64,000 nt of DNA from Powellomyces hirtus (taxonomy: Eukaryota > Chytridiomycota > Chytridiomycetes > Spizellomycetales > Powellomycetaceae). The stretch is from assembly GCA_025526995.1 (NCBI GenBank), contig JAHLKG010000017.1, positions 434,001-498,000 of the forward strand. Reading direction: 5' to 3'. The position numbers and the translations under genes are program-made. The notes beneath the pieces were generated by a model, which was not told the DNA's origin, did no database searches, and worked only from the letters and a program-made list of their open reading frames with translations. Shown in pieces: positions 18,043-49,700 of the stretch (its first letter is position 1; every line of letters begins with the position of its first letter).

Positions 18043-21000
18043 TTACTGAACAAAGGCGACGTTGTTTTCCATCCCTGTTCCGTCCCTCTGTGTGTGGCCT
18101 TCCAGGTCAGTTCTCCAATCACCGTCGACCACAAATTTGTAAAGCACATTTTGGTTGACAGGTATAGGAAGAGTGAGCTCAAAGTGCGTAGGTAAGTCAG
18201 AGCTCTGCTTCATGGCGTGCTGATTGGGGTTCCAGTCATTGAAGGAGCCAGTTACGAACACGTTGTTGCCGCCGTGTTTCCAGACAAAGGTGTATGGCTT
18301 TTCAGTCACAGCCTCTGGTGCCGCCCGTGCCTCTTCACTCGTCGCGGGGGCATCCAGCTCCCTCAAAATGGGTGTGGTATCAAGAGAAGGGGGTGGCGAA
18401 GCAGGTGTTACCGCATTGGTCTGCGCTTTCATCTCTTCTGTGCGCTGCTTGTCCAGCACTTCCAGCTCGTCGCGCCGCTTCTGCAAGACTTCAATAAGCT
18501 CCTCCAGTCCCTTGTTTGCCGTTTCGGCGCCCTGCAGACGCGCTGTCATGACTTCAATGGTGCTTTGGAATTTATTTAACGTTGCGGCGTATTGTGCACG
18601 GTCCGTGGTAAGGGCGTGGAGGGCAATTTTTGACTCAGCTAGATCTTGCTCCATCTGTGCGGTCTTCTCATTGGCGAGATCGAGTTTCTTCTGAAGTTTC
18701 TTCTCTTGAAGCGATTCTACTACAGCAGCCGATTCTTGCTCAATGGACGCAATCTGTACTTTGTCTCCCGCTCGTATTTCAGCAAGCTCGGCATTTTTAG
18801 CGGCAAGCTCCTGTTTGAGAGTCGCTACTTCCGCGTTCAAAGTGTGCTCTACTTTGGATGCTTCGGCCAGTTTAGCGTTCACAGCGCCAAGATCTTTGAC
18901 CTCAGCAGACTTGGCTTCAAGCTCCTTCTGTGCGAGTTCGGTTTCTGCGCGTGAGGCCTCAAGCTCTTTCTTCACTTGCTCGATCTTCACCTCAAGATCG
19001 CCCGCAAGAGACTGCTTGGATTCGAGCTCCCTCTGCGCGAGTCGCATTTCCGCTCGGGAGGAGTCGAGGTCCTTCTTCAATTGCTCGATCTCCGACGCCT
19101 TCGCTTCGATATTGTCCGTAACTGCAGTGGTCTTTTCATCGACCGCTGCCGCTTCAGCACCGAGCTCTTCGACTCTGCGCTTGAGATCTGCGGCTCTCTC
19201 TTCGCCAGATTTTACCTGCTGACGGAGGTCCTCGGTCCGTTCCCTTTCCTGACGAAGTTCTTCGGCCATCCGCTCAGTTTCGCCCGAAACCTCAGCCTGT
19301 TTTGAAACGAGCTCTTTGTGCGCGACCTGAGCTTCTGCTCGAGAAGCTTTCAGTTCTTCCTTCAATCGCGCTATCTCTTCATCCTTTGCTTCGAGATCGT
19401 CCGTAACTGCTTTCTCCTTTTCGTCGACCGCCGTCGTTTGAGCAACGAGATCCTCCACTCTGCGCCTGAGATCCGCGGCTATCTTTTCGCCAGATTCTGC
19501 CTGCTGACGGACGTCTTCAGTCAGTTTCCTCTCCTGATGAAGTTCCTCGGCCATCCGCTCGGTCTCTGTCTGGTAACGCTCTTTCCAGTGATCCATTTCG
19601 CGCTTCAGATTGTCAGCAACATCGCGTTCCTTTGTTGCCTGCGACAACTCCCTGCTGAGAGATTCGGCTCGTGATCTGTGTTCCTCCAACTGGCTATCAC
19701 GGTCCATGTTGTCACGGGTCAATTCGGCGAGACGAGCTTCATACTCATCTGAAATCTTTCTCAAGTTCTGAGCGGCTTGACGTTGTTCCACCGCGCGATC
19801 CTCCCGTTCCTTGGCAAGTTCCTGCTGGATTATTTGCAGAGCGTTTTCGAGCTTTGATGTGAGCGCACTCTGCCCTTCCAACGCTTTGCGACGGGAGGCA
19901 TCGACCTGCTGGTTACGGTCTTCCAATTGCGCTTGCAGTTCTCGGTTGTTGGCCTCAAGATTGCGAATAGTCGCTCTGAGCTTTTCTGCGAGCTCGGCGG
20001 ACTGTACAGCTTTGATGGCACGGTCTTTAGCATCTCTTTCGTGCAGTTGGGCATTGGTCAATGACTGAGTGAGAACGCGGTTTGTATCTCTAAGGATAGC
20101 CATCTCAGATTGCACCCTTTGCGCAGCTTGACTTTGACGCCTCGCTTGATCAATTTCAGAGGCCAGAAGAGTATTCGCGGAAGCCAACTCCTCTTGTTCG
20201 TGACGAAGGCTGGCGATAAGCGCCATGCGCTCGCTGAGCTGCTTTTCCATCGACCCGACCTTGCTGAGGGCGTGCTGGAGCTGGTTTTGTAACTCCGAAG
20301 CACGCCCAAAGTTCGCTTGTTCAACATCTCGGGAGTCCAAGGATGGGGAAGGAGACGATTGAACACTTGAATTCTCTTGGGGTTCGATCACATCCTCGTC
20401 TTCCTCGAGAGGAGCTTCAGCGCTCACCACTTCGGTGGCTATCGGCTCGGCAGGATGGGCTACGGAGCGCTCGTCATCAGGCTGCGATACCGATGCTGAT
20501 GCCGGAGTTGAATACTCGTCTGCGGCGGGAGCGACGACGTCGCGCGCTGGGTTCGATTCTGCGAACTTTGGGATCTCCTCGCTTATAGGGTCGGCCTTTT
20601 CAGGAATAACCTGGACTTTCTTCTTAGGCTTGCTGATTGCCTTCGCAGCTTCCCCCTTGGATTGCGTTGGCTTTGGCTTCGTGGACTTGGCCAAGGTGCT
20701 AAGCAGGAGAAGATCTTCGATGCTGTCTTCTTCGCCAGCAGCCTCGTAATCATCCTGGTCAGAGCTTTGAGCAGAGTGACCTTCCAGGGTCCGAGAAGAC
20801 TTTTTCTTCGCCTCCTCGGGTTTCTTGACCGCTTTTTTCTTTAGCTGTTACAACCATCTCAGTCAAAGCTCAGATTGACGTCAGCGATGTCACGTCACTC
20901 ACAATCTTCGATTTCCTAAGCGAGTCCTTTTTGGAAGCCAGAGTCTTTTTGGCAGTACCGAGTTGCTTAGAAGTATCTTTGATCAGATCTGCAATGAGAG

Positions 21001-28915: not shown

Positions 28916-31900
28916 ATGGGAAATTCGTCAGCAGTGCAGCAGCAGACCTCTACTGAAGGTTTGGCTATCGTTGTCCGCCTGGTTTCTGGCAACGAGACTC
29001 ATCCAAAGTGTGTTTGGTATCTTTAAACAGATGCAGTAGACTCAGCTGCTCCAGCTAGTTCGCCCGCAGCAACAGCCACGGTGAGCGACTTTGACGCAGA
29101 AATGGAGGCTCGCCTTCACGCTTTCGAAAAACTGGAACGCGATCTCAGGTTGGCTTCGTCAAAGCTCCCGCAAGAGATTGCATGCCAGGTTGTTTACAGA
29201 ATCAAATTTGACCTCATCTTGTAGTGAATCGCTGAAGCCCCAATCCAAGTGGGGAGATGAAACCTTCAGAGCCGAACCCACTGGTGAGGCTGACGACGAC
29301 AAGGAGTACCATGAGGTCTGTGTACCGGACGAAGACGAGTTTATGGACGGAGGTAAGGAGCGCATAGCTGGCGTTGCACATCAACCATCAATTGATCCAT
29401 GCTTCTTGTTCCATGGCATCCCTAGGTCCACTCCTTCCTATCGTTGCCAAATTTCTGCGCAAACGCTACCCTGCCAGAGACAGCCCGTTCTCGCGGCCCA
29501 TGACCAGCGAGGACGCCGAATTTCTCACCTCCAACCTCCGCAACTTTAAGATAGTGACCACGCACCGCCCAGAGTTTAAGCGCGGCTATCGTATTTACGG
29601 GATCGATCCGCGTTCGGCTGGTGCCATCGCTATTGGCGCAGATGAGAAAGAAGTGAACGAAAAGGGAGGCCAGACAGTCAAAGACTATTTTACGGAACGG
29701 TACGAGGTCGACATCAAGGATGAGCATGCGCCTTGTGTTGCGGTCAAGAAGCTGCAGGTATCATGATCCCGTCGTTGGCGCACGGGATGGGGACATTATG
29801 CTCATCATGTGACGCTCGTCTTTCATAGGGATGGACGTACTTGCCCATTCAATTCTGCGAAGTCTTGCCCGGCCAGCGTTTGTGCACCCCATCCTATGAA
29901 CTGCCTGTAAGTGTACCCCAATATGCCATACCCTCATTTACATTCTCAGCTGAATGCTTGTTTCCTGGCTGTGCAGGACCCTAAGGATACTAGTCGGGTC
30001 CCGGATTTCACTCCTGCGGAACCGGAAGAGGGAGATGGAGACGGTGGAACTGAATTCAAGAAAAAGAATAAAAAAAAGAAGAAGAACAAGAACAAGGAGT
30101 CTGAGGCCGGGGACAATTCTTCCGTTTCCACTGCTCCCGTTTGCGGTGAGCCCGTCGCTGCTCCAGTGGCCGCAGCCGCCTCAGTGGCCCCTGCAGCCGA
30201 AGTCGTTCCCAAAGTCGAAAAGGAGCATAGCTTGTACCGCAAGCGTGAACCCCAGCGATTTGGGGTCCCCGAGGCCACATGGAATCATCGGAAGTCCCTC
30301 GGCGTCTGTCTCCGCTGCGGACACCCCAGTCACCGGATCCATGATTGCATGCTGTATGGGATCGATGATGGCAGCAAGGACTGGCACGATGTACCCCGCT
30401 ATGTCCTGATGAACATGGAAATTCCAACCAAGCCAAAGCAGACACTCGCTCAGAAATGCAACGTCCCGAAAAGCGATTGGTATCGTCGCCGTGATGGCGG
30501 TCTTTGTGAGCGCTGTGCCCACCCTGGACACATTATTCAGGAATGCCGACTTATGAAGATTGATGAGATGTGGAATGATGGCACCAAGAGGTGGATTGAT
30601 GTACCTGAATACTTGGAGGATTCCACACCCAACAAAATTCCCGGCAAGGATCCAGTTCCAAAAGGCTTTGTTTGGGACCATGATCGATATTACCAACTTG
30701 GCGAGGACGGCGTAACCAAGATCCCACTCATAAAGAAAGTTTACACGCCTAACAAGAAGGACATGCGCCCCGTTCAGGATCTGCCTGCTGTTCCGTGGGA
30801 AGAGGCTGAGAAGTTGGAGAAAGAGCAGCGGGCTGGCAAGGATGGTGTTTCTGTCGGAGAAAGCAAAACGGGAGCGCAAGATGCTACTGCCAAAGATTGG
30901 AAGCCCAAACGAGATGCAGAATCTGCTGCTGTGACCCGTGCAGAGCCAATCGTGGATGCGGAAGGGTACACAATCTTAGACAAAGCAGGCACGCTCAAGA
31001 AGAAAGTCCTGAAGAAAGGAGCTGGCCCGTTGATGAAGCCCCAAACTATCTTGCAAGGTATGGGCCGAATATTTTATCTGTTGATTTTTTTGACTCAACG
31101 TCTTTTACTTTGCAATTGCAGTTCATTATATTGGCTGGATTGTTTCTGCCCCAGACTTCAAGGAAGAGGAACCCAAGGAATTTCACAACACCTATGCCAT
31201 TGATGACCCATTGGAGTTCGTGCACGGTGAAGGTATGCTAGTACGCGGACAGTTTGCTCCAAATTGTTTGGCTGCCGCTGACTGCCGGTTGTGCTTTGTC
31301 TATTGAAGGCCAGGAGCTCCCGGTCTGGGAGGAAACCATCCCCACGATGCAAACTGGGGAAAAATGCGAAATCATCTGCGGACCAGAGTATGGCTTCGAT
31401 GCAAAGGGCTATGATGATATAGTTCCACCCAACGCGACTCTCAAATTCCATCTGGAGATTCTATTTGCAAAGCCAGTAGGTGACATTTCTCATTGATCAT
31501 CGATGGCACGAGAGGCTGATTCAATTGCTTTGAAGCCTGAGGACCCGATCGAGATTCGTCTCGCAGATGCGCAAGAGCTCAAGGACCGCGGGAATACACA
31601 TTTCAAATCCGGAGCTTTCCTCCTCGCCCAGACTGCTTATGAGGAAGCTCTCGCGCGGCTCAGTCACACCTGGGGCATGAGCTTGTCCCAGGACGTGGAA
31701 ATAACCAAATTCCGGGCAACCGTCAATGCAAATCTCTCCCTCGCATACCTCAGGACCAAAGACTGTGACAAAGCCATTACGGCTGCGGACGACGGCCTGG
31801 TTCATAATCAGCACAGCGCAAAATTGTGGTACAGAAAGGCACAGGCCCTCCGCGGTTTGGAGAGGTGGGATGAAGCTGTGAAGGCGGGAAATATGGCTGA

Positions 31901-32186
31901 GGAGGTGCGTGTCGCTCAGCGTGCGCAATCCCCGCCAAATGGTTCAGTTCATCTGATATCTCTCAATTTCTCATAGTACGACCCCGATGACAGCAGTATC
32001 AGAGCTTTCAACAAATCGCTGCCTGGAGCTCGCGAGGAGGCGAAGCGCAGGGAAAAGCGGATGTATGAGCAGATGTTCAGCAGCGATAAAAATACGCCGA
32101 GCCCAAGCCCCTCCACTCCTATTTCGGCTGATAACAATGCCACTGCGGATGCAGCCCCTGAAGCTGCCTTGGACGGTGCTGCTTGA
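28916..32186 (+). CDS. PAZ - two CCHC knuckles - FKBP - TPR fusion protein
   Basis: Ten exons (28916-28958, 29031-29148, 29225-29352, 29426-29757, 29829-29906, 29977-31057, 31122-31232, 31309-31475, 31536-31904, 31977-32186) sum to 2637 bases, exactly 878 codons plus stop. Domains in order: MGNSSA start (possible N-myristoylation); Argonaute-type linker-1 and PAZ, about 125-233 (LRNFKIVTTHRPEFKRGY, TVKDYFTERY, TYLPIQFCEVLPGQR); Lys-rich and Ala-rich linker; CCHC knuckles at 344-357 and 410-423 (CX2CX4HX4C); FKBP domain about 570-686 (VHYIGW, LPVWEE, GPEYGF, IVPPNATL); TPRs about 690-815 (RGNTHFKSGAF first), then a REKRMYEQMF tail common in FKBP-TPR proteins. No MID or PIWI. TPR immunophilins bind Hsp90 and help load Argonaute elsewhere, so a role in small-RNA handling is inferred. 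Intron 8, just before the TPR part, is the join most worth checking. Confidence 0.85.
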
Positions 32187-32716: not shown

Positions 32717-34406
32717 ATGTCGTTCTTCCTTTTGCACGAGACGGCCTCCGGGTACGCTCTCTTTGAGCGTATTGAGTCCGAAGAAATTGGTCAGGAGCTG
32801 GAGGAGGTCCAGAAGAGCGTCTTGGACTTGGCCCGGTTCAGCAAAACCGTCAAGCTGAGGTCATTTGCCCCTTTCAAGAGCGCTGCCCATGCGCTCGAGA
32901 ACATTATGGATGTGTCTGAAGGTGTGTTGTAGAAAGAGAAAAGCACTGGAATGGAACGAAAATCCACAGTTGTGGGGAGTGGAATGGTAGAAGAAGACTG
33001 ACATTGAGTTTATTTTCCCAGGTATCGTTAACCCGTCCTTGAAGGCTTTCCTGGAGATGAACATGCCCAAAGCTGGAAAGAAGCAGACCGTGCAACTGGG
33101 AGTGTCTGAAAGCAACTTGGGAGGAGGCATCAAAGCTGAGCTGGGATACGACTGTCTTCACAACGAGACCGTCCGTGAGCTGCTCCGGGGGATCCGTCTG
33201 CACGCCGACCGTCTGATGAGCCAGCTCAAGGATGGCGATCTCGACAAAGCACAGCTGGGTCTTGGTCACGCGTACTCGCGGTCCAAGGTAAAGTTCAACG
33301 TGAACAGGGCCGATAACATGATCATGCAGTCCATCAACCTGCTGGACCAATTGGACAAGGATGTCAACACATTCTCCATGCGAGTGCGAGAATGGTACGG
33401 CTGGCACTTCCCGGAATTGGTCAAGATCTGCGCCGACAACGCCATGTACGCCAAGCTTGTCAAGCTTATCAAGAACAAGGGCGACCTTGGCGAGGAGAAG
33501 CTGGAGGAACTTGAGGTTGTCACCGGCGACCCTATCAAGGCCAAGCAGATTCTCGACGCTGCCCGGGCTTCCATGGGTACCGATATCTCCGAGATTGACA
33601 TGACCAACATCGACAGCTTCGCCGACCGTGTTGTTGCTCTGACCGACTACCGCAAGAAGCTGCACGGATACCTGGTCAGCAAGATGCACCAGGTTGCGCC
33701 CAACTTGTCCGCCCTGATCGGCGAGATGGTCGGTGCCCGTCTGATCGCCCATGCCGGTAGCTTGACCAACTTGTCCAAGTACCCCGCCTCCACTGTCCAG
33801 ATTCTCGGAGCCGAGAAAGCTCTTTTCCGCGCCCTCAAGACCAAGGGAAACACTCCCAAGTACGGTCTCATCTACCACTCCACCTTCATTGGTCGTGCCG
33901 CACAGAAGAACAAGGGACGCATCTCGCGTGTTCTCGCCAACAAGTGCTCCATCGCGTGCCGTATCGACTGCTTCTTGGACAAGCCAACAAGCAAATTCGG
34001 AGAGCTGCTCCGCGAGCAGGTTGAGGAGCGAGTGCGATTCTACGAGGAGGGTGTCACTCCCCGCAAGAATGCCGAGGTTATGCAGAAAGCTCTGGCCGCG
34101 GTCGGCATGGAGGATCTGATGGACGTTGTTGCCAACGATGATGATGACGAGGAAGACGCTGCGGGTATGTTAACACATCCCCCATCATGTTTATAGAGAC
34201 CTTGTGATTGACATCTTCATGTTTGTTTTCTAGAAGAGGAAGAGCCACCGAAGAAGCGCAAGGCCGCCAAAGCTGAAGCCGCGGCTGACTCTGACGCGTC
34301 TGATGCCGAGGTCCCCAAGAAGAAGTCCAAGAAGGAGAAGAAGCCCAAGAAGGAGGGAAGCGAGAAGAAGAAGAAGAGCAAAAAGGACAAGAAGGACAAG
34401 AACTAA
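32717..34406 (+). CDS. NOP56: NOP56, box C/D snoRNP core protein
   Basis: Nop56 is a scaffold of box C/D snoRNPs that guide rRNA 2'-O-methylation in the nucleolus. Three exons (32717-32921, 33022-34164, 34234-34406) give 506 residues, the usual length. The N-terminal domain begins [13 protein letters not shown], followed by a coiled coil and the highly conserved NOP domain (for example [18 protein letters not shown], the site that grips the kink-turn and the 15.5K/Snu13 protein, and [12 protein letters not shown]). The tail is the Lys/Asp/Glu-rich repeat typical of the family. Codon use is visibly more biased to C/G-ending codons than in the neighbours, fitting high expression. I looked for C and D boxes in both introns (100 and 69 bases) and saw no convincing snoRNA. 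Confidence 0.97.
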
Positions 34407-35568: not shown

Positions 35569-37015
35569 ATGCGAGGCTCGGCAGACTCGAACGCTCAAGA
35601 GCAGTTGGCCCCCGCTTCCCCGCTCGTCTCGGCGGCGTCGGCACCCCGCGGAAGACGTCGCGGAGGGAGCGTTCACCCTAACCAACGCAGTACTCCTACC
35701 GAACCCGACTCATCATCGAAGCCCAGCCGCCGGTCCGCTGATCTACCACCGTATAACCATAAGTCACAGGCATCCAACACTCCACGGAACCCTCCGGGCG
35801 GCGGTCTTCTGTCCATTATCACTATGCTCGCGCTCGCACCCGTGCGACTCTGTATCGCCGTGCTCACAGCTATGCGTACTTTCCTTGTCGCTGCTGGATC
35901 CGTGCTCGGAATCACAAGACCGCGACCATCAGCGTCCTCTGAAAGGGGGTCTTCGGAGTGGAGCCTCCTTGCTTTTGTGGATGCGATCGACCGATGGTGG
36001 AATGCCGCTTGGTGCTGGGTCATGGAAGCGTGCCTAGGCTTTCCACTTAGAGCTACGATACATTCCCATGGAGCCGTGCTGGTTACTGGCGCTGGATCTG
36101 GGATTGGGTATGTTATTGGCTTCTTTGTTGTTTCCGATCATTTTGGCTCATCCGATGCCTATCTGCAGAGCACATGTCGCACAAACACTTGCCGCAAAGA
36201 ACTACGTAGTCTACGCGGGGATGCGAACGCTATCTCCCGGAAATAGCCGACGCTCCTCAAATCTGCACCCAATTCAGCTCGATGTGACCTCCTCTTCACA
36301 GATCCGCGCCGCTGCAGAATACATTGAATCGCTGGACATACCTTTGATTGCTGTTGTGAACTGCGCCGGCATTCCGTCCGCGCCCACGCCAATGGAGTAC
36401 GTCTCTGAGCGGGACATGATGCAGTGCCTAGACGTGAACGTCGTTGGACCTCTCCGCATTGTGCAGCACTTTCTTCCACTACTCCGAAGATCAAAGGGGC
36501 GTATTGTGAATGTATCGTCGGTCGCTGGATTCACCCCAAGTCCAATGCATGGTGTCTTCGCGGCGAGCAAGACGGCACTGGAAACATGGTCTGATTCCTT
36601 GAGGGTGGAGGTACGCAAGTGGGGCATTGCCGTCGTAATTGTCCAGCCTGGATCAGTCGACACGGCACTGTGGCAAAAGCCGCCTCACGCACATCAGAGC
36701 GATGGACATCCTTCACAGGCAATGCAACGCCTCCCGATCGCCACCACCACCACCATTATAACGCCGGGGCCGCCAACAACCATTTACACGCCGCTGCAAA
36801 CTTCCGTGACACAAATCACCGCGGAGACTCGCAAGCACCTGATCAGCACCACTCACACATCCCGCGCCATCTTCCACGCCATCACGGACCGGTACCCTAA
36901 AACGCGATACCTTGTCGGCGTAGACGCCAGGCTTGCATACCTCCTTGCACACCTGCCAGATCGAATCCTCGACTGGGCATTCTGGATCGCACTCGGCAAA
37001 GATAGGACCGAGTAA
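35569..37015 (+). CDS. Short-chain dehydrogenase/reductase family protein, altered active site
   Basis: Two exons (35569-36107, 36169-37015) give 461 residues. The first 120 residues are Ser/Pro/Arg-rich and then hydrophobic (LSIITMLALAPVRLCIAVLTAM, about 83-104), suggesting a membrane anchor. The Rossmann fold follows with the nucleotide motif VTGAGSGIG, split by the intron, then VNCAG, and the NVSSVAG strand with the catalytic serine. Where the catalytic Tyr-x-x-x-Lys is expected the sequence reads FAASK: the lysine is kept but tyrosine is phenylalanine. The C-terminal half (YLVGVDARLAYLLAHLPDRILDW) resembles the retinol/17-beta-hydroxysteroid dehydrogenase branch. A Thr-rich insert lies at about 36740-36790. 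It may be inactive or use a different mechanism; the family call is firm. Confidence 0.9.
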
Positions 37016-42327: not shown

Positions 42328-44863
42328 TTACCATGCCCAATTCCAAATCAACATTGCACCGAGCAGTCCAACCGTTCTCCACTTGGACACCTTCGATCCC
42401 GCGATCCAGTCCACAACGCGGGACGAAACGCCAGAGACCCCTGTAGCGACGGTAAAGAACAGGATGCCGAACACAAACATGCCGACGGCAGGGGATCCCA
42501 TGATGCTTCCAAACGGCAACACAACGAGGCCTTTGGTGTCGACAGCGAGCCAAACATGGTACTGCACCAAGAAAAGCTCCAGGGAAGATTGTCCGACCCA
42601 TCGGAAGAACTGTGAGGAGGACCCACGCAGGGAGGGAGTATAGTTTCGCAGAATCGTGAATGCGATGACGACCAGGGGGGAGATGTACGGGTGGACAGCG
42701 TTGTAAGTGAATTTTGTCGGTGTGATGGTGATGAAGACGCTGTAGCCGGCGATCACGGCGAGAGACGCGCCGAGGGCATACGGTTTCAATTTCGTGATGG
42801 TGGCGAGGCTGAGTTGAGTGGTTGTGAATGCCGTGAGCATGCCCGCGAATACAATGAGGTGATCCAGCATCAATCGGAACGCGCTCTCCTTTGCGTCCCA
42901 GTTGATGGCGGCAACGAGGTTGAGCAGCTTGAACAGATTTTCGAGGAACCACGGGATCTTGATGATGGCCCACGAAACCATGATGGCCACGCCAATTTTC
43001 ATGAGGAGGAACGGCGTGTTCTTGTTGTACTGGTTGCCGATGTACATGGTCAACCACACAAAGATGAACCAGAAGGAGACCAAGGGTCCGAAGTAGTAGA
43101 ACAAAATATCCTTGTCCATGGTGTAGGCCATGGCGGCGGAGAGGAGGTTAAGTCGGACGAGGATGGAGGCCGCGCGGGCGAATGTGTATACGTTCTTTTT
43201 GTAAAAGAAGATGAAGTGTCCGTATCCAGTCATGAAGAGATAGGATGCAACAAGGACGCGGATGACTGCATAGATTGGGGTGATGGAGCTGGCGCCGGTA
43301 TAGTGGTAGACCAGAATGGCCAATTGCATCCATCCCTTCCATTCGTCAGTTTGATGACGGTTCAAGAACGACGTGTCCTTTTCCGTCGCGAGAGTGGCCA
43401 ATCCCGGGATGACCGTAGAGATTACAAGGAGAATGAATGTCGGAAGGTAGAAGGATTTGTTGACCTTTAGAAAGAGAGGAGTACGATCTACCAGGAGCAT
43501 GTAGAACACAGCTGCGCCGATGATTGTGAGATCGGACGAAGTTTGCTCTCCTGGGAGGTACTTCTCAAGAAGGTCCGTTACGAAGCCACCACCGATGGTG
43601 CCCTTCATTCGTCCTTCGCGGGTTACGTGTCTCCAGAACCACGCGGCACATCCAAAGACCGCGAACATCAACAATGTCACCCATTGTTGAGACTTGATCT
43701 CCGCGTATTTGACGCAGCAAGTGGCCTTTCCAGCAGGGTTCTTTCCAAACAAGCGAGAGTTGCAAATTTCGTTCAACTGCAGGTTAAGCTCGTGCGACAA
43801 AACGCTGTCGTCATAGTGGAAGCCGTCCACGGTGTGGTCGGCAGAGACTGAATATAGGGCAGCAGAGTAAAGAGGCGCTCCAACGTCATGTAAAGTCCGC
43901 CCTTCAGCTCCAATGACGCTGAATATGTGAGTGTTAAATTGGTCGACCTTCTCAGGGGTCATTAGCCCTTTTCGACTCGCGTCGAGCTTGGACTCTACGA
44001 CCGGATTTACTGGTCGGACAAACACCCTCTCGACGGCCCCATCCGCATTGAAGGTGCTCCAAGCTACTCCGGAAGAGTGGCGGAGTGTGACACCCTCCAG
44101 CACGTGGTCCAGAGCGTTCTGGAAAGATTTAAAACCATCTGCACCTCCATATTTCATGAACCAATGTCCCGCGGAGAACGTCAACAGGATGGGCTTTTTC
44201 GCTGTCGGTCCCTCAGCTTCGAGCCAGGGCGGGCTTTCTTGATTTGTAACATTCCAGAAAGGGTCCCAGTAAAACGATAGAGAGATGCCATTAGGACCAT
44301 CTATGTGCTGATCTTCGTGTTTTCCGCCCGTGTTTACTGCGTCCGGAATCAGCTTGTTCCTGAGAGCAAGGTAGGCAGCACGCGCAGTCGAATCTCCGAC
44401 ATAAACGGCCCGAGAATCTTTCAAACACGTGGTGGCTTCCTTTTGGGTATATTGGTGAAGAAAACATGAGTGGGTTTGCCAGTGGGCTTTGCCGTAGCCG
44501 GCGGAGCCGATCAAGTGTCCGTTGGCGAGGTCGGCACTGCAAAGTTGCACATCCTCGTTCCCAAACCGAGCTTCTGCAAGATGATTGGTAAATGATGACT
44601 TTAGCGAGACAGCCACATCTCCGGAAGCTACACCCGTGTTGTTGCGCAGTCTACATACCAGGTCTTGGTTTGAGGAGAACAACCACGACAGACAAGAGTA
44701 CCATGAGCGTCGCGGCCGCAATGGAGATCTTGACCCCCGTTTGTTGCTTCGAGAAGCCCGATCGCTTCGATATGCTGTCCTGGGGGACATCCTCAGGCGC
44801 CTTGGGTGTCTCAGTTACGGGCGTTGGCAGCAACCGTTCAGCGTCGTCGGTCATTGCGGTCAT
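42328..44863 (-). CDS. Cas1/CASD1-type polysaccharide O-acetyltransferase
   Basis: Cas1p-family enzymes add O-acetyl groups to glycans in the Golgi lumen (capsule mannan in Cryptococcus, sialic acid in animals as CASD1). Two exons (44863-44659, 44573-42328) give 816 residues. The order is a short cytosolic tail, one membrane anchor (about 49-63, AAATLMVLLSVVVVLL), a lumenal SGNH-type catalytic domain with the nucleophile motif VGDSTAR (about residue 126) and the DGFHYDD Asp/His pair (about residue 317), and then the C-terminal 10TM acyltransferase domain from about residue 370. Two methionines (MTAMTDD) compete as start. All key catalytic elements are present, so the enzyme is probably active. 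Confidence 0.95.
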
Positions 44864-45320: not shown

Positions 45321-46385
45321 TTAATCTATGCTGACCAACTCGACCTCGAAAGTAAGATCTGTATTCGGTGGTATCCTGATGACAACCGATTGCAGTCAGC
45401 ACAACCACTCTGCCCGCTGTAGCACCATGGAGAGTTTACCTTCCGTCGGGAGTACCCTTCTTTCCGTATGCCCACTCGCTCTCTATTATGAGACGGGCCT
45501 TCTCCCCTTTGAACATGGTCATGAGTCCCTCGTCCCTGTAAGTTGACAGATCAGCATATCAGAGCCAAGAGAATTAAGGTAAATGCTGCACCCGCACCAG
45601 CCGCGAATGACTCTTCCAACTCCAACTGGAAAAGAGATCACGGCATCAGATACATGAAGAAGAACGAACAAAACATCATGACGCACGTCGCGGATGTGAA
45701 AGAAGGGGATACCTTTGAAACGCAGTGCAGAAGGTTTCTTCTTTCCAAGATTGGTGTCAAACACGGTGCCATCGGGCAGAGTGCCGGTATAGAAAACATG
45801 CACCGTATCTCCTTTCTTTGCTTTTCGCTCTCCGTCGCCTTTCTTCAGAACCACTTTTGTGTACTTTGGCTCTTTTTGAACGACCTCCTAAATACAATTT
45901 GTCGTCAAGCAGAGATCGGTCTTGAGACAACGCACCAAACGCATACCGTGTCTTTGGGTTGCTCAACAACTTTTTCTGATTTGTCCGAAGTCTGGCCTGC
46001 AGTGGCTATCGCGGCCGCTTCCTCAAGCGTCTGTCCTTCGGGTCGGAAAGCAGCATCCCCTGCTTCGTACAGGGCTTTGTATGACTTGACCAGGTCGGGC
46101 TTCTTTGAAGATTTGATGATATTTGCTGTTTTGCCGTACAACTTTCTTTCTTTCAAGAACTGTTCCAATTAAAACGTGTCCCACGATTAGCATAGCCTTG
46201 TTGGTCTCGAGAGGAGTACAAGAGGACCTCATATGTCGCGTTGTCGTGGAGGAAGGTGACCAGGTCTTGACAGGTCGTGAGCAACAAGCAACCGGGCATG
46301 CAAACGAATTTACAGACTCTCTACCTTTCTTGGAGACAGAGTCGCCTTCGAGCTGCTCTGGAGTCCACAGTGCTGCAGGTGCCAT
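45321..46385 (-). CDS. FKBP3: FKBP25-type peptidyl-prolyl isomerase
   Basis: FKBP25 is a nuclear prolyl isomerase with a nucleic-acid-binding helical N-terminus. Seven exons (46385-46325, 46265-46228, 46159-45947, 45887-45713, 45625-45598, 45535-45440, 45375-45321) sum to exactly 221 codons plus stop. The N-terminal basic tilted helix bundle starts WTPEQLEGDSVSKK and continues FLKERKLYGKTANIIK and LVKSYKALYEAG. The FKBP domain has VFYTGTLPDGTVFD, VIRGWDEGL, WAYGKKG and the closing FEVELVSI strand; the pocket residues Tyr, Phe-Asp, Trp and Tyr are in place, so activity is expected. Exon 5 is only 28 bases. The gene shares a short divergent promoter with RPC2. Confidence 0.93.
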
Positions 46386-46710: not shown

Positions 46711-49700
46711 ATGCCACCATACGTCCCAGGAGACCACCCACCCGGCAGGGGAAAGGGTAGCTCCATTTTCGAAATGGATACAATGGGTAGAGACGATTTG
46801 AGATATGCCGGCAAGAAGCTCACAGATCCAATCAGCGCCGCAGAGGTATTAGCTTCTAGTAAACCAGTTGCTTTATATGTCAAGTAATTGTACTCACTTT
46901 GTTCTCGCAGGACAAATGGCGGCTTGTACCAGCTTTCCTTCAGACCAAAGGACTGATCAAGCAGCATGTGGACTCTTTCAACTATTTTATCGAGACGGAG
47001 ATGAAGCAGATCTTGCTGGCGAACGCCAAAGTAGATAGTGATGTGGACCCAGCTTTCTGGTTGAAGTGAGTGTCTACCGGGATCGAGGAAATGCGTGAAG
47101 AAGGCAGGAGCTTAACAATACTTCCGCACAGGTTCCGAGACATCCGTGTGAAGCATCCGCAGGCTTACGACGCTCGGAAGGGTATCGCGTACGAGCTTAC
47201 CCCGCACGAATGTCGACTGCGAGACGTCACCTATGCCGGAACTATCTTGGTGGACATTGAATACGTACGTGGCAAACAGCTAGTAAAGAAGAGGGGAATT
47301 GAGGTCGGACGAATGCCCATCATGCTGCGGAGTAACCGGTGCTGCTTGACGGGAAAGTCACCGGAAGACATGGTCAAGGCGGGAGAGTGTCCGTTGGATC
47401 CTGGTGGTTACTTCATCATCAGAGGTACCGAAAAGGTCATTCTGATTCAGGAGCAGCTGTCCAAGAATCGAATCATTGTCGAGACGGATCGACTGGGATT
47501 GATCAATGCGAGCGTTACGAGTTCAACGCATGAGAAGAAGAGTAAAACTAATATCTGTTACGGCAAAGCGGGTCGCGTGACAATGAAGCACAACAGTTTC
47601 ACCGCGGAAGTACCTGTGGTCGTTGTAATGAAAGCAATGGGTATCGAATCGGATCGAGAAATTGCCGAACTTATTTGCGGCAACGATGAGAAGTTCCTGG
47701 ATCTATTTTCGCCATCACTGGAGGAATCATCGATGCTGGACCCGCCAGTTTACACACAACGGCAGGCTTTGGACTGGCTTGGACGCAAGGTTAAAGTTAC
47801 TGCCATGCGTAGCAGGATCGGTATGCGAAAGGATTACGTGGAAGAAGCGCGTGATTTGCTGGCGACCACGGTACTCGCCCACGTTCCTGTGGACGATGTC
47901 AATGGTCAATGGAACTATCGACCAAAGTCAGTTTACGTCGCGTTGATGGTTCGTCGAACGCTTCAAGCCGTCAAGGACGGCGGTATTGTCGATGATCGTG
48001 ATTTCGTGGGAAACAAGAGATTGGAACTGGCTGGTCAGCTTCTGTCACTGCTGTTTGAAGATTTATTCAAATCGTGGCAAGCCAATATCAAACGAGCGAT
48101 CGATACCCAGCTGAAACGCTCCAATCGCACCTCACAGTACGACGCTGCTACAGCTGTAGCTCAAACATCACGTTTCATTACCGATGGGCTGTTCCGTTCG
48201 ATTTCATCAGGAAACTGGAATGTCAAGCGTTTCAAGATGGAGCGTGCTGGTGTCACGCAAGTGCTGTCACGTCTCAGTTACGTCTCTGCGCTGGGCATGA
48301 TGACGAGAATTAGCAGTCAGTTTGAGAAAACGAGAAAAGTCAGTGGACCTCGTGCCTTGCAGACATCCCAATTTGGTGTCATCTGTCCATCAGATACTCC
48401 AGAAGGAGAAGCCTGTGGTCTGATCAAGAATTTGGCTCTCATGACCCATATCACAACCGACTCGGACGACTCGTCCATGCGGCGACTGGCTTTTATTCTG
48501 GGTGTGGAAGATATCAACGTGCTCACCGGTCTGGATCTCTACGAAGACGGCACTTATCTGGTGTTCCTCAACGGTGTCATTCTTGGAGTGCATCGCAACC
48601 CAGAAAAGTTTGTCAATGACTTTAGACGACTACGGCGCGCAGGTCGCGTGGGTCCGTTTGTCTCCGTATACAGAACAACCACACAACGCACAGTCAATAT
48701 CAGTAGCGATGGAGGACGAGTCTGTCGACCGCTTATCATCGTCAACAAGGGCAAAAGCATGGTCACGGATCAGGACGTCAAAGACGCCATCCACGGCATC
48801 AAAACCTTCGAAGATCTGATTCAGGAAGGCAAAATCGAATACCTGGACGTCAACGAAGAAACCGATACAGACATTGCCATGTACGACAAAGACCTCAATT
48901 ACAACGGGAAGTTGCCATTCGGCGTGAACGATCCCGCCGCCCTTGAACGCCCCAACACCACCCATCTCGAGATTGCTCCCTTCACCGTCCTCGGCGCCGT
49001 CGCGGGGCTCATTCCTTACCCACATCACAACCAGTCTCCGCGAAACACCTACCAGTGCGCTATGGGTAAGCAGGCGATCGGAGCGATCGCTTACAACCAG
49101 CTCACGCGGATAGATACGCTGCTGTATCTCATGGTGTATCCGCAACAACCTATGGTGCGGACAAGAACCATTGAGCTGATTGGATATGATAAGCTGCCTG
49201 CTGGACAGAATGCGACTGTGGCCGTCATGAGTTATAGTGGATACGATATTGAGGATGCGCTGGTATTGAACAAGGTAGGTGTTACATCACGTAGATGTTG
49301 TGAGGGAATCAAGCTGATTGGTCGATCATTGTTCGCAGGCGTCAGTTGATCGAGGATTCGGACGATGTCAAGTCATGCGCAAATTTGCCACCATGATCAA
49401 ATCATACCCGAATCAAACTTACGACCGTCTCGCCGACCGAGCCGAAGACGCTTACGGGCAGGTCCTCGACAAGTACGAAATTCTCGACGATGATGGTATC
49501 GCAGGCGTAGGGGAACGGATTCACACCGGACAGGTTGTTATCAACAAGCAAAGTCCGACGGAAACGGCGCCCCGGGTGGCGCCCATGGCCGATGCCGCAG
49601 AACACGGCCAATTCATGGGAAGCACTGATCCAACCACCATTTCGTACAAAGCCGCACCCATGACCTTCAAATACGATGGTGATGCCGTCATTGACCAGGT

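Follow-up and report, generated by a model that had tools for sequence, protein, structure and literature searches.

The closest described systems are proteins combining FKBP and TPR domains that take part in small-RNA pathways. In Tetrahymena, the FKBP-TPR protein Coi12p is required for the loading of small interfering RNAs (siRNAs), and the parts of the study drawn on here describe two routes: one depends on ATP and Hsp90 and needs the TPR domain, whereas the other is independent of ATP, does not need the TPR domain and can be carried out by a fragment with the two FKBP domains (PMC4331008). The same account reports no detectable peptidyl-prolyl isomerase (PPIase) activity for Coi12p and no Hsp90 binding without its TPR domain; the ATP-independent route counteracts the lid Giw1p, which touches the PAZ and Piwi domains of Argonaute (PMC4331008). 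Binding of siRNA duplexes by Coi12p was not detectable, and the identity of the duplex recogniser before loading was left open by Woehrer et al. (PMC4331008). In mice, FKBP6 is described as lacking PPIase activity and working with Hsp90 in the delivery of Piwi-interacting RNAs (piRNAs) (PMC4496705), and a role in piRNA biogenesis is given for Shutdown (PMC4331008). Here we describe a gene of the chytrid fungus Powellomyces hirtus, located in a stretch of 64,000 nucleotides (the window, C17:434001-498000, within a genome of 29.26 Mb in 60 contigs), that is predicted to encode a PAZ domain, two CCHC zinc knuckles, an FKBP domain and a TPR domain in that order, as does one gene in each of two relatives. 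PAZ domains are known from Argonaute and Dicer.

The coding region of this fusion gene occupies positions 28916..32186 of the window on the plus strand, as do all its features given below, and is defined by a splice model and by collinear orthologs. Exons 1-5 lie at 28916-28958, 29031-29148, 29225-29352, 29426-29757 and 29829-29906, and exons 6-10 at 29977-31057, 31122-31232, 31309-31475, 31536-31904 and 31977-32186. When spliced, the ten exons give exactly 878 codons and a stop, as a sequence-only reading of the locus had proposed; all nine introns are of the GT-AG type, with lengths of 60-76 nt, and include the two at 31058-31121 and 31476-31535 for which that reading had called for particular confirmation. 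Since the knuckles and the start of the FKBP domain share one exon (29977-31057), the linkage of the PAZ domain to the remainder of the protein comes down to a single splice, the removal of the intron at 29907..29976 (GTAAGT...GTGCAG), and this join is reproduced in both orthologs. The gene is seemingly single-copy, as the 878-aa query matched, outside its own exons, four Argonaute PAZ exons, one TPR protein and a stray piece of 21 residues. Part of the knuckle exon recurs as a stray piece of 56 nt (93% identity) at C37:29007-29069, on the minus strand of an 88-kb contig.

The orthologs come from Thoreauomyces humboldtii and Geranomyces variabilis, both members of the Powellomycetaceae (Spizellomycetales). 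A protein search with the PAZ part recovered HKX48_000046 of T. humboldtii (1177 aa) as the one protein found among 155 candidates and missed the G. variabilis protein, while a search with the knuckle part recovered the 801-aa G. variabilis protein as the one protein found among 24 candidates and missed that of T. humboldtii. The full-length search yielded none among 7,988 scored candidates, though both orthologs sit in the same database; its candidate list was probably filled by low-complexity words. As these searches miss true relatives, they do not establish that the gene is absent from other fungi. Identity to the window protein is 46% for G. variabilis and 43% for T. humboldtii, the local alignment with the latter having 331 of 832 columns identical (40%) at an E value of 1e-178. 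In both proteins Pfam detects PAZ, FKBP_C and TPR, and both knuckles are present, so that the proposal to look for the same domain order in other fungi has led to two collinear proteins. By region, identities in G. variabilis and T. humboldtii are 56% and 51% for the PAZ with its upstream stretch, 52% and 52% for the knuckle module, 44% and 49% for FKBP, and 52% and 42% for TPR; the linkers reach 33% and 31% in one case and 28% and 39% in the other, and the N-terminus 34% and 29%. Conservation of the PAZ and knuckles is thus no weaker than that of the chaperone half.

Residues 6-380 of the T. humboldtii protein have no counterpart in the G. variabilis protein and match no Pfam family over cut-off; their P. 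hirtus homolog, 46% identical, lies at a separate place (C4:128534-129712), and this extension therefore probably stems from a neighbouring gene that annotation has fused to the model. One source labels the G. variabilis ortholog 'cytochrome P450 monooxygenase 9', yet the families that Pfam detects in it are PAZ, FKBP and TPR, with no P450 domain, and the record is probably misnamed. A wrong splice model or an assembly join that fuses two genes has to be considered, as the PAZ join hangs on the one intron and the T. humboldtii model itself seems merged at its N-terminus. Against this, two other species share the domain order, with similarity that runs through the PAZ, knuckles, FKBP and TPR and weakens in the linkers, and the G. 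variabilis model carries no extra gene. Given collinear orthologs at these levels of identity, an artefact is very unlikely and was rejected; the assembly join that the sequence-only reading had named as its possible undoing is strongly contradicted, and two separate transcripts are unlikely because the same order occurs in two further species.

The PAZ domain (aa 127-225; 29515..29882, exons 4 and 5) is detected by Pfam with an E value of 6e-14 and 52.5 bits against a cut-off of 28.8, a score that excludes an absence of PAZ similarity; the orthologous domains reach 65.2 bits in T. humboldtii and 57.3 bits in G. variabilis. Compared with the PDB, the PAZ part matched 31 distinct sequences at E <= 1, all of them Argonautes or Argonaute PAZ domains (best 1si2, E 1.6e-13), and within its own genome it matched exons of four Argonautes at 27-32% identity. 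Judged by its sequence, the domain is of the Argonaute type. The stretch just upstream (aa 98-126; 29428..29514) aligns with the equivalent stretch of the Argonautes of the same genome; as this short stretch is all that aligns upstream and ArgoL1 is absent among the Pfam families at E <= 1, the L1-PAZ segment originally described is retained for its PAZ part, with an L1 stub at most. In a PAZ tree of 11 rows, the three fusion proteins cluster (bootstrap 92, below the tool's threshold of 95; SH-like approximate likelihood ratio test, SH-aLRT, 96), with the window protein and that of G. variabilis nearest to each other (98/96). The deeper branches, which would place the fusion PAZ among the Argonautes, are weak.

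Residues H269, Y309, Y336, Y314, Y277, Q295 and K313 are reported to contact the last two 3' nucleotides of bound RNA, and K264, M273, R275, K276, R278, K313 and K333 to contribute strongly to the binding energy, in the part of the study used here (PMC5896489); this numbering agrees with hAGO1 PAZ at 13 of 13 letters. The five pocket residues H269, Y277, Y309, Y314 and Y336 are all kept in the window and T. humboldtii proteins, and four of them in G. variabilis. In the Argonautes of the same genome the corresponding counts are 4 (C6), 4 (C2), 3 (C1), 3 (C18), 2 (C5) and 3 (C4, where the exon ends before the fifth pocket position, so that one of the five is unseen). The C5 Argonaute (C5:653561-656785) has a very divergent PAZ, with a branch length of 1.94 in the tree.

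Downstream of the PAZ, the knuckles lie at aa 344-357 (30307..30348) and aa 410-423 (30505..30546). The exact CX2CX4HX4C pattern occurs twice in all three fusion proteins, whereas in 20,000 shuffles of the fusion protein at least one knuckle arose once and two never did. The two CCHC knuckles of the sequence-only reading thus stand by pattern and by conservation in the orthologs, and not by a zf-CCHC profile score above cut-off. Searched against the genome at E <= 10, the knuckle module matched, besides its own gene and the stray copy, solely a Gag-like open reading frame (ORF) at C12:404833 (E 0.013), a match too weak for a retrotransposon Gag origin of the knuckles to be concluded. This ORF (571-1842 of the extracted locus) holds one CCHC knuckle and is followed by a second ORF.

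The chaperone half begins with the FKBP_C domain (aa 587-681; 31036..31460, exons 6-8; Pfam E 4e-16, 59.6 bits against a cut-off of 21.1), followed by a TPR domain with an Hsp90-type carboxylate clamp (about aa 695-843; 31560..32078, exons 9-10). Within the latter, TPR_2 at aa 781-814 scores 29.3 bits against a cut-off of 27, and further TPR models match aa 754-814 under cut-off; both assignments made from sequence thus hold, and the best sequence matches of this half are FKBP51 and FKBP52. At the positions that we take to form the clamp, the window and G. variabilis proteins keep five of five residues and the T. humboldtii protein four. At the presumed active-site positions, numbered after FKBP12, the window protein carries D37H, F46L, V55E and Y82F and so departs from an intact PPIase site, while the orthologs retain more; for G. 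variabilis the MAFFT alignment sets F36/D37 one column off, and as the sequence itself has F-D at this point, these residues were not counted as lost. With D37, F46, V55 and Y82 replaced, the protein of this species probably has little or no isomerase activity.

AlphaFold2 was employed to model the G. variabilis protein from an input alignment of the two full proteins and four window exons. The model has low overall confidence (mean predicted local distance difference test score, pLDDT, 60.8; predicted template modelling score 0.30), and for this reason no arrangement of domains was read from it; in ten-residue blocks, pLDDT is 56-83 over residues 81-200, which include the PAZ, and mostly 84-96 in the TPR part. 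A Foldseek search of the PDB with this model put FKBP52, FKBP51 and FKBP38 at the top, several of these structures containing Hsp90 or its tail peptide, and placed human Ago2 at rank 43 (E 4.9e-8). A second structural alignment covered mainly the TPR part and is thus uninformative on the PAZ; the 50 matches listed are FKBP-TPR proteins, other TPR chains and one designed cage protein, with no Argonaute among them. The structures matched by the TPR part of the ortholog include CHIP TPR domains in complex with Hsp70 tails.

The genome of P. hirtus is rich in genes of RNA interference (RNAi). The PAZ profile gave nine matches (eight over cut-off), which fall at eight places: six also carry PIWI, another (C6:964k) has a long open frame with a pair of RNase III domains, and the last is the fusion gene. 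With the PIWI profile, 16 matches were obtained (13 over cut-off), covering the six Argonaute loci and one short piece on C24. The latter (C24:372500-372727) is the lone PIWI place without a PAZ match; over 59-70 residues its identity to the C5 Argonaute reaches 68%, and it looks like a decayed copy. Pairs of RNase III domains also occur at C17:376338-377351 (Dicer-like, about 86 kb from the fusion gene) and at C3:1312-1313k, RNA-dependent RNA polymerase (RdRP) matches at three places, and Hsp90 matches at two, the C15 copy ending in MEEVD and the C7 copy in HDEL. Within this genome the fusion gene thus occurs together with six Argonautes, Dicer-type RNase III genes and RdRPs. Pfam finds no PIWI in the 878-aa model and none of the 16 listed PIWI matches falls on its contig, in agreement with the absence noted earlier; likewise no RNase III domain was found in the model by Pfam, the nearest listed pair on the contig being the Dicer-like one. 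Membership of the fusion protein in Argonaute or Dicer was rejected, as it lacks PIWI and RNase III, and so was the idea that it serves a PAZ-less Argonaute in trans, since the six full Argonaute loci each have their own PAZ match. A second FKBP-TPR protein, with an FKBP_C match and a TPR match, is encoded at C2:1682k; we read it as AIP-like.

In the titles and abstract openings of the open-licence literature listed, no protein joining PAZ to an FKBP, immunophilin or peptidyl-prolyl isomerase domain was present, and neither the papers listed on chytrid RNAi nor those listed for the chytrid genera with PAZ mention such a fusion at that level, the term 'PAZ domain' being absent from the latter. 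Fungal Dicers, those of 19 chytrid species among them, have been surveyed, and the portion of that survey used here treats the PAZ of Dicers (PMC12663654). The suggestion that the combination has not been described agrees with these listings, with the reservation that the same architecture is already present, unrecognised, in two database entries. The predicted protein is a real and conserved architecture, undescribed as far as the open-licence literature shows, and a variant of the FKBP-TPR co-chaperone kind. A PAZ with a kept 3'-end pocket here sits on a protein of the co-chaperone type that published accounts tie to Argonaute/Piwi loading in ciliates (PMC4331008) and mice (PMC4496705).

Because of this domain content and the known FKBP-TPR proteins, we hypothesize that the most likely single function of the fusion protein is the loading of small RNAs into Argonaute, a proposal to which we assign about an even chance; the broader statement, that it is an FKBP-TPR Hsp90 co-chaperone of Argonaute with its own module for binding RNA 3' ends, seems to us equally balanced between right and wrong. 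The PAZ and knuckles would hold small-RNA duplexes or 3' ends and the TPR clamp would dock on the tail of Hsp90, while the FKBP domain, probably a poor enzyme here, would act on Argonaute or on a lid and promote loading in the manner of the Coi12p FKBP domains. The protein could thus bring together a small RNA and an Hsp90-opened Argonaute, and be released after the hand-over. The residues kept in the PAZ pocket and the TPR clamp provide what such a loading factor would need. If the proposal is true, RNA recognition and the Hsp90 arm of loading would be united in one polypeptide, and their coupling could be probed by point mutations of pocket and clamp. More tentatively, and with a probability that we place appreciably below even, the protein could represent a hitherto undescribed class of RNA-reading Hsp90 co-chaperones, in which a Dicer product would be caught by its 3' overhang through the PAZ and knuckles, with the FKBP-TPR half holding Hsp90 and acting on Argonaute. 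Were this so, recognition of the right RNA would be physically coupled to the opening of Argonaute, and chytrids would have one solution to the problem of linking siRNA duplexes to loading. A protein with both halves fits, by analogy, the gap left in Tetrahymena for a duplex recogniser.

Several observations weigh against a loading role. Of the 13 named PAZ contacts, only 8 are kept in the window protein, 6 in G. variabilis and 8 in T. humboldtii: K333 is G in all three, K276 is replaced by G, R or Q and K313 by R, R or Q, Q295 is lost, and G. variabilis has Y in place of H269. With basic contacts being lost, the affinity of the domain for RNA may be weak. The knuckles stay below the Pfam cut-offs (best 16.4 bits against 27), and T. 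humboldtii has S at one clamp residue. Known co-chaperones of the FKBP-TPR kind function without a PAZ, the C2:1682k protein could be the one that serves Argonaute, and no RNAi domain was found in eight neighbouring frames tested by Pfam (two gave no family). The Argonautes of the same genome keep 8 (C6), 9 (C2), 4 (C1), 3 (C18), 4 (C5) and 4 (C4, 11 positions seen) of the 13 contacts; by residue counts, the fusion PAZ is about as intact as the two most canonical of them and better than the other four.

The loss of several basic RNA contacts of the hAGO1 PAZ speaks for the main rival within the same pathway, a decoy: an FKBP-TPR co-chaperone whose PAZ strips an inhibitor (lid) from the PAZ of Argonaute without holding RNA itself. 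Against it, the pocket retains its aromatic and histidine residues throughout the three proteins, the H-to-Y change in G. variabilis excepted, and is thereby more intact than in most of the Argonautes that the genome encodes; two knuckles of the RNA type also follow the domain. We regard the decoy as unlikely. The neighbourhood lends itself to a different role, that of an Hsp90 co-chaperone which binds RNA but works outside RNAi, for instance serving another ribonucleoprotein (RNP) with a free 3'-OH RNA end. The eight frames free of RNAi domains are in keeping with it, as are the next gene downstream, which encodes a protein with a Nop domain of small nucleolar RNPs, and the fact that PAZ and knuckles are not in themselves siRNA-specific. 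The solved-structure matches of the PAZ, Argonaute in 31 of 31 distinct sequences, and the abundance of RNAi genes in the genome speak against such a role, which we hold to be somewhat less probable than the decoy.

A further alternative involves turnover by way of Hsp90 or Hsp70: the fusion protein would be a negative regulator, a sponge for small RNAs or a quality-control factor that directs small RNAs or unloaded Argonaute to one of these chaperones for removal. A PAZ without MID and PIWI could presumably grip a 3' end and neither a 5' end nor a target, and the CHIP domains among the structural matches are compatible with this idea; Pfam, however, finds no degradation domain in the fusion protein, and nothing favours turnover over loading, so that we rate this role as the least probable of the three. 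The loading role remains the reading we prefer.

Eight of the 20 listed open frames of the window (at least 250 aa) were tested with Pfam. The Nop snoRNA-binding domain frame directly downstream of the fusion gene lies at 32991-34196, and is followed by frames for a short-chain dehydrogenase (36038-37015), a Cas1p-type acyltransferase (42328-44814) and an RNA polymerase subunit of the Rpb2 type (47070-49349); upstream, the frame at 18043-20847 encodes a long protein with an AMPK1 glycogen-binding domain at its end. A second FKBP-domain gene of the window, at 45448-45833 on the minus strand (C17:479448-479833), was matched in two pieces.

Compared with known systems, the fusion protein resembles Coi12p in that a TPR domain comes after an FKBP domain whose active site is poorly conserved, and differs from it in that Coi12p carries a pair of FKBP domains and, according to its published architecture, neither PAZ nor knuckles (PMC4331008). 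The C2:1682k protein likewise has an FKBP domain and then TPR, and no PAZ match is listed at its place. FKBP6 and Drosophila Shutdown share the pairing of FKBP and TPR, the FKBP domain of FKBP6 being inactive, and to our knowledge neither has a PAZ or CCHC knuckles. FKBP51 and FKBP52 give the best sequence matches of the FKBP-TPR half and the best structural matches of the ortholog model, whereas FKBP51 was matched over two FKBP stretches, and we know of no RNA-binding part in either protein. Dicer shares the presence of a PAZ domain with the fusion protein, which in turn has no helicase or RNase III and whose PAZ matches Argonaute, not Dicer, among solved structures. The PAZ domains of hAGO1/2 are the best matches of the fusion PAZ, which keeps their five-residue 3'-end pocket while several of the basic contacts are lost, and which is joined, in place of MID and PIWI, to knuckles, FKBP and TPR.

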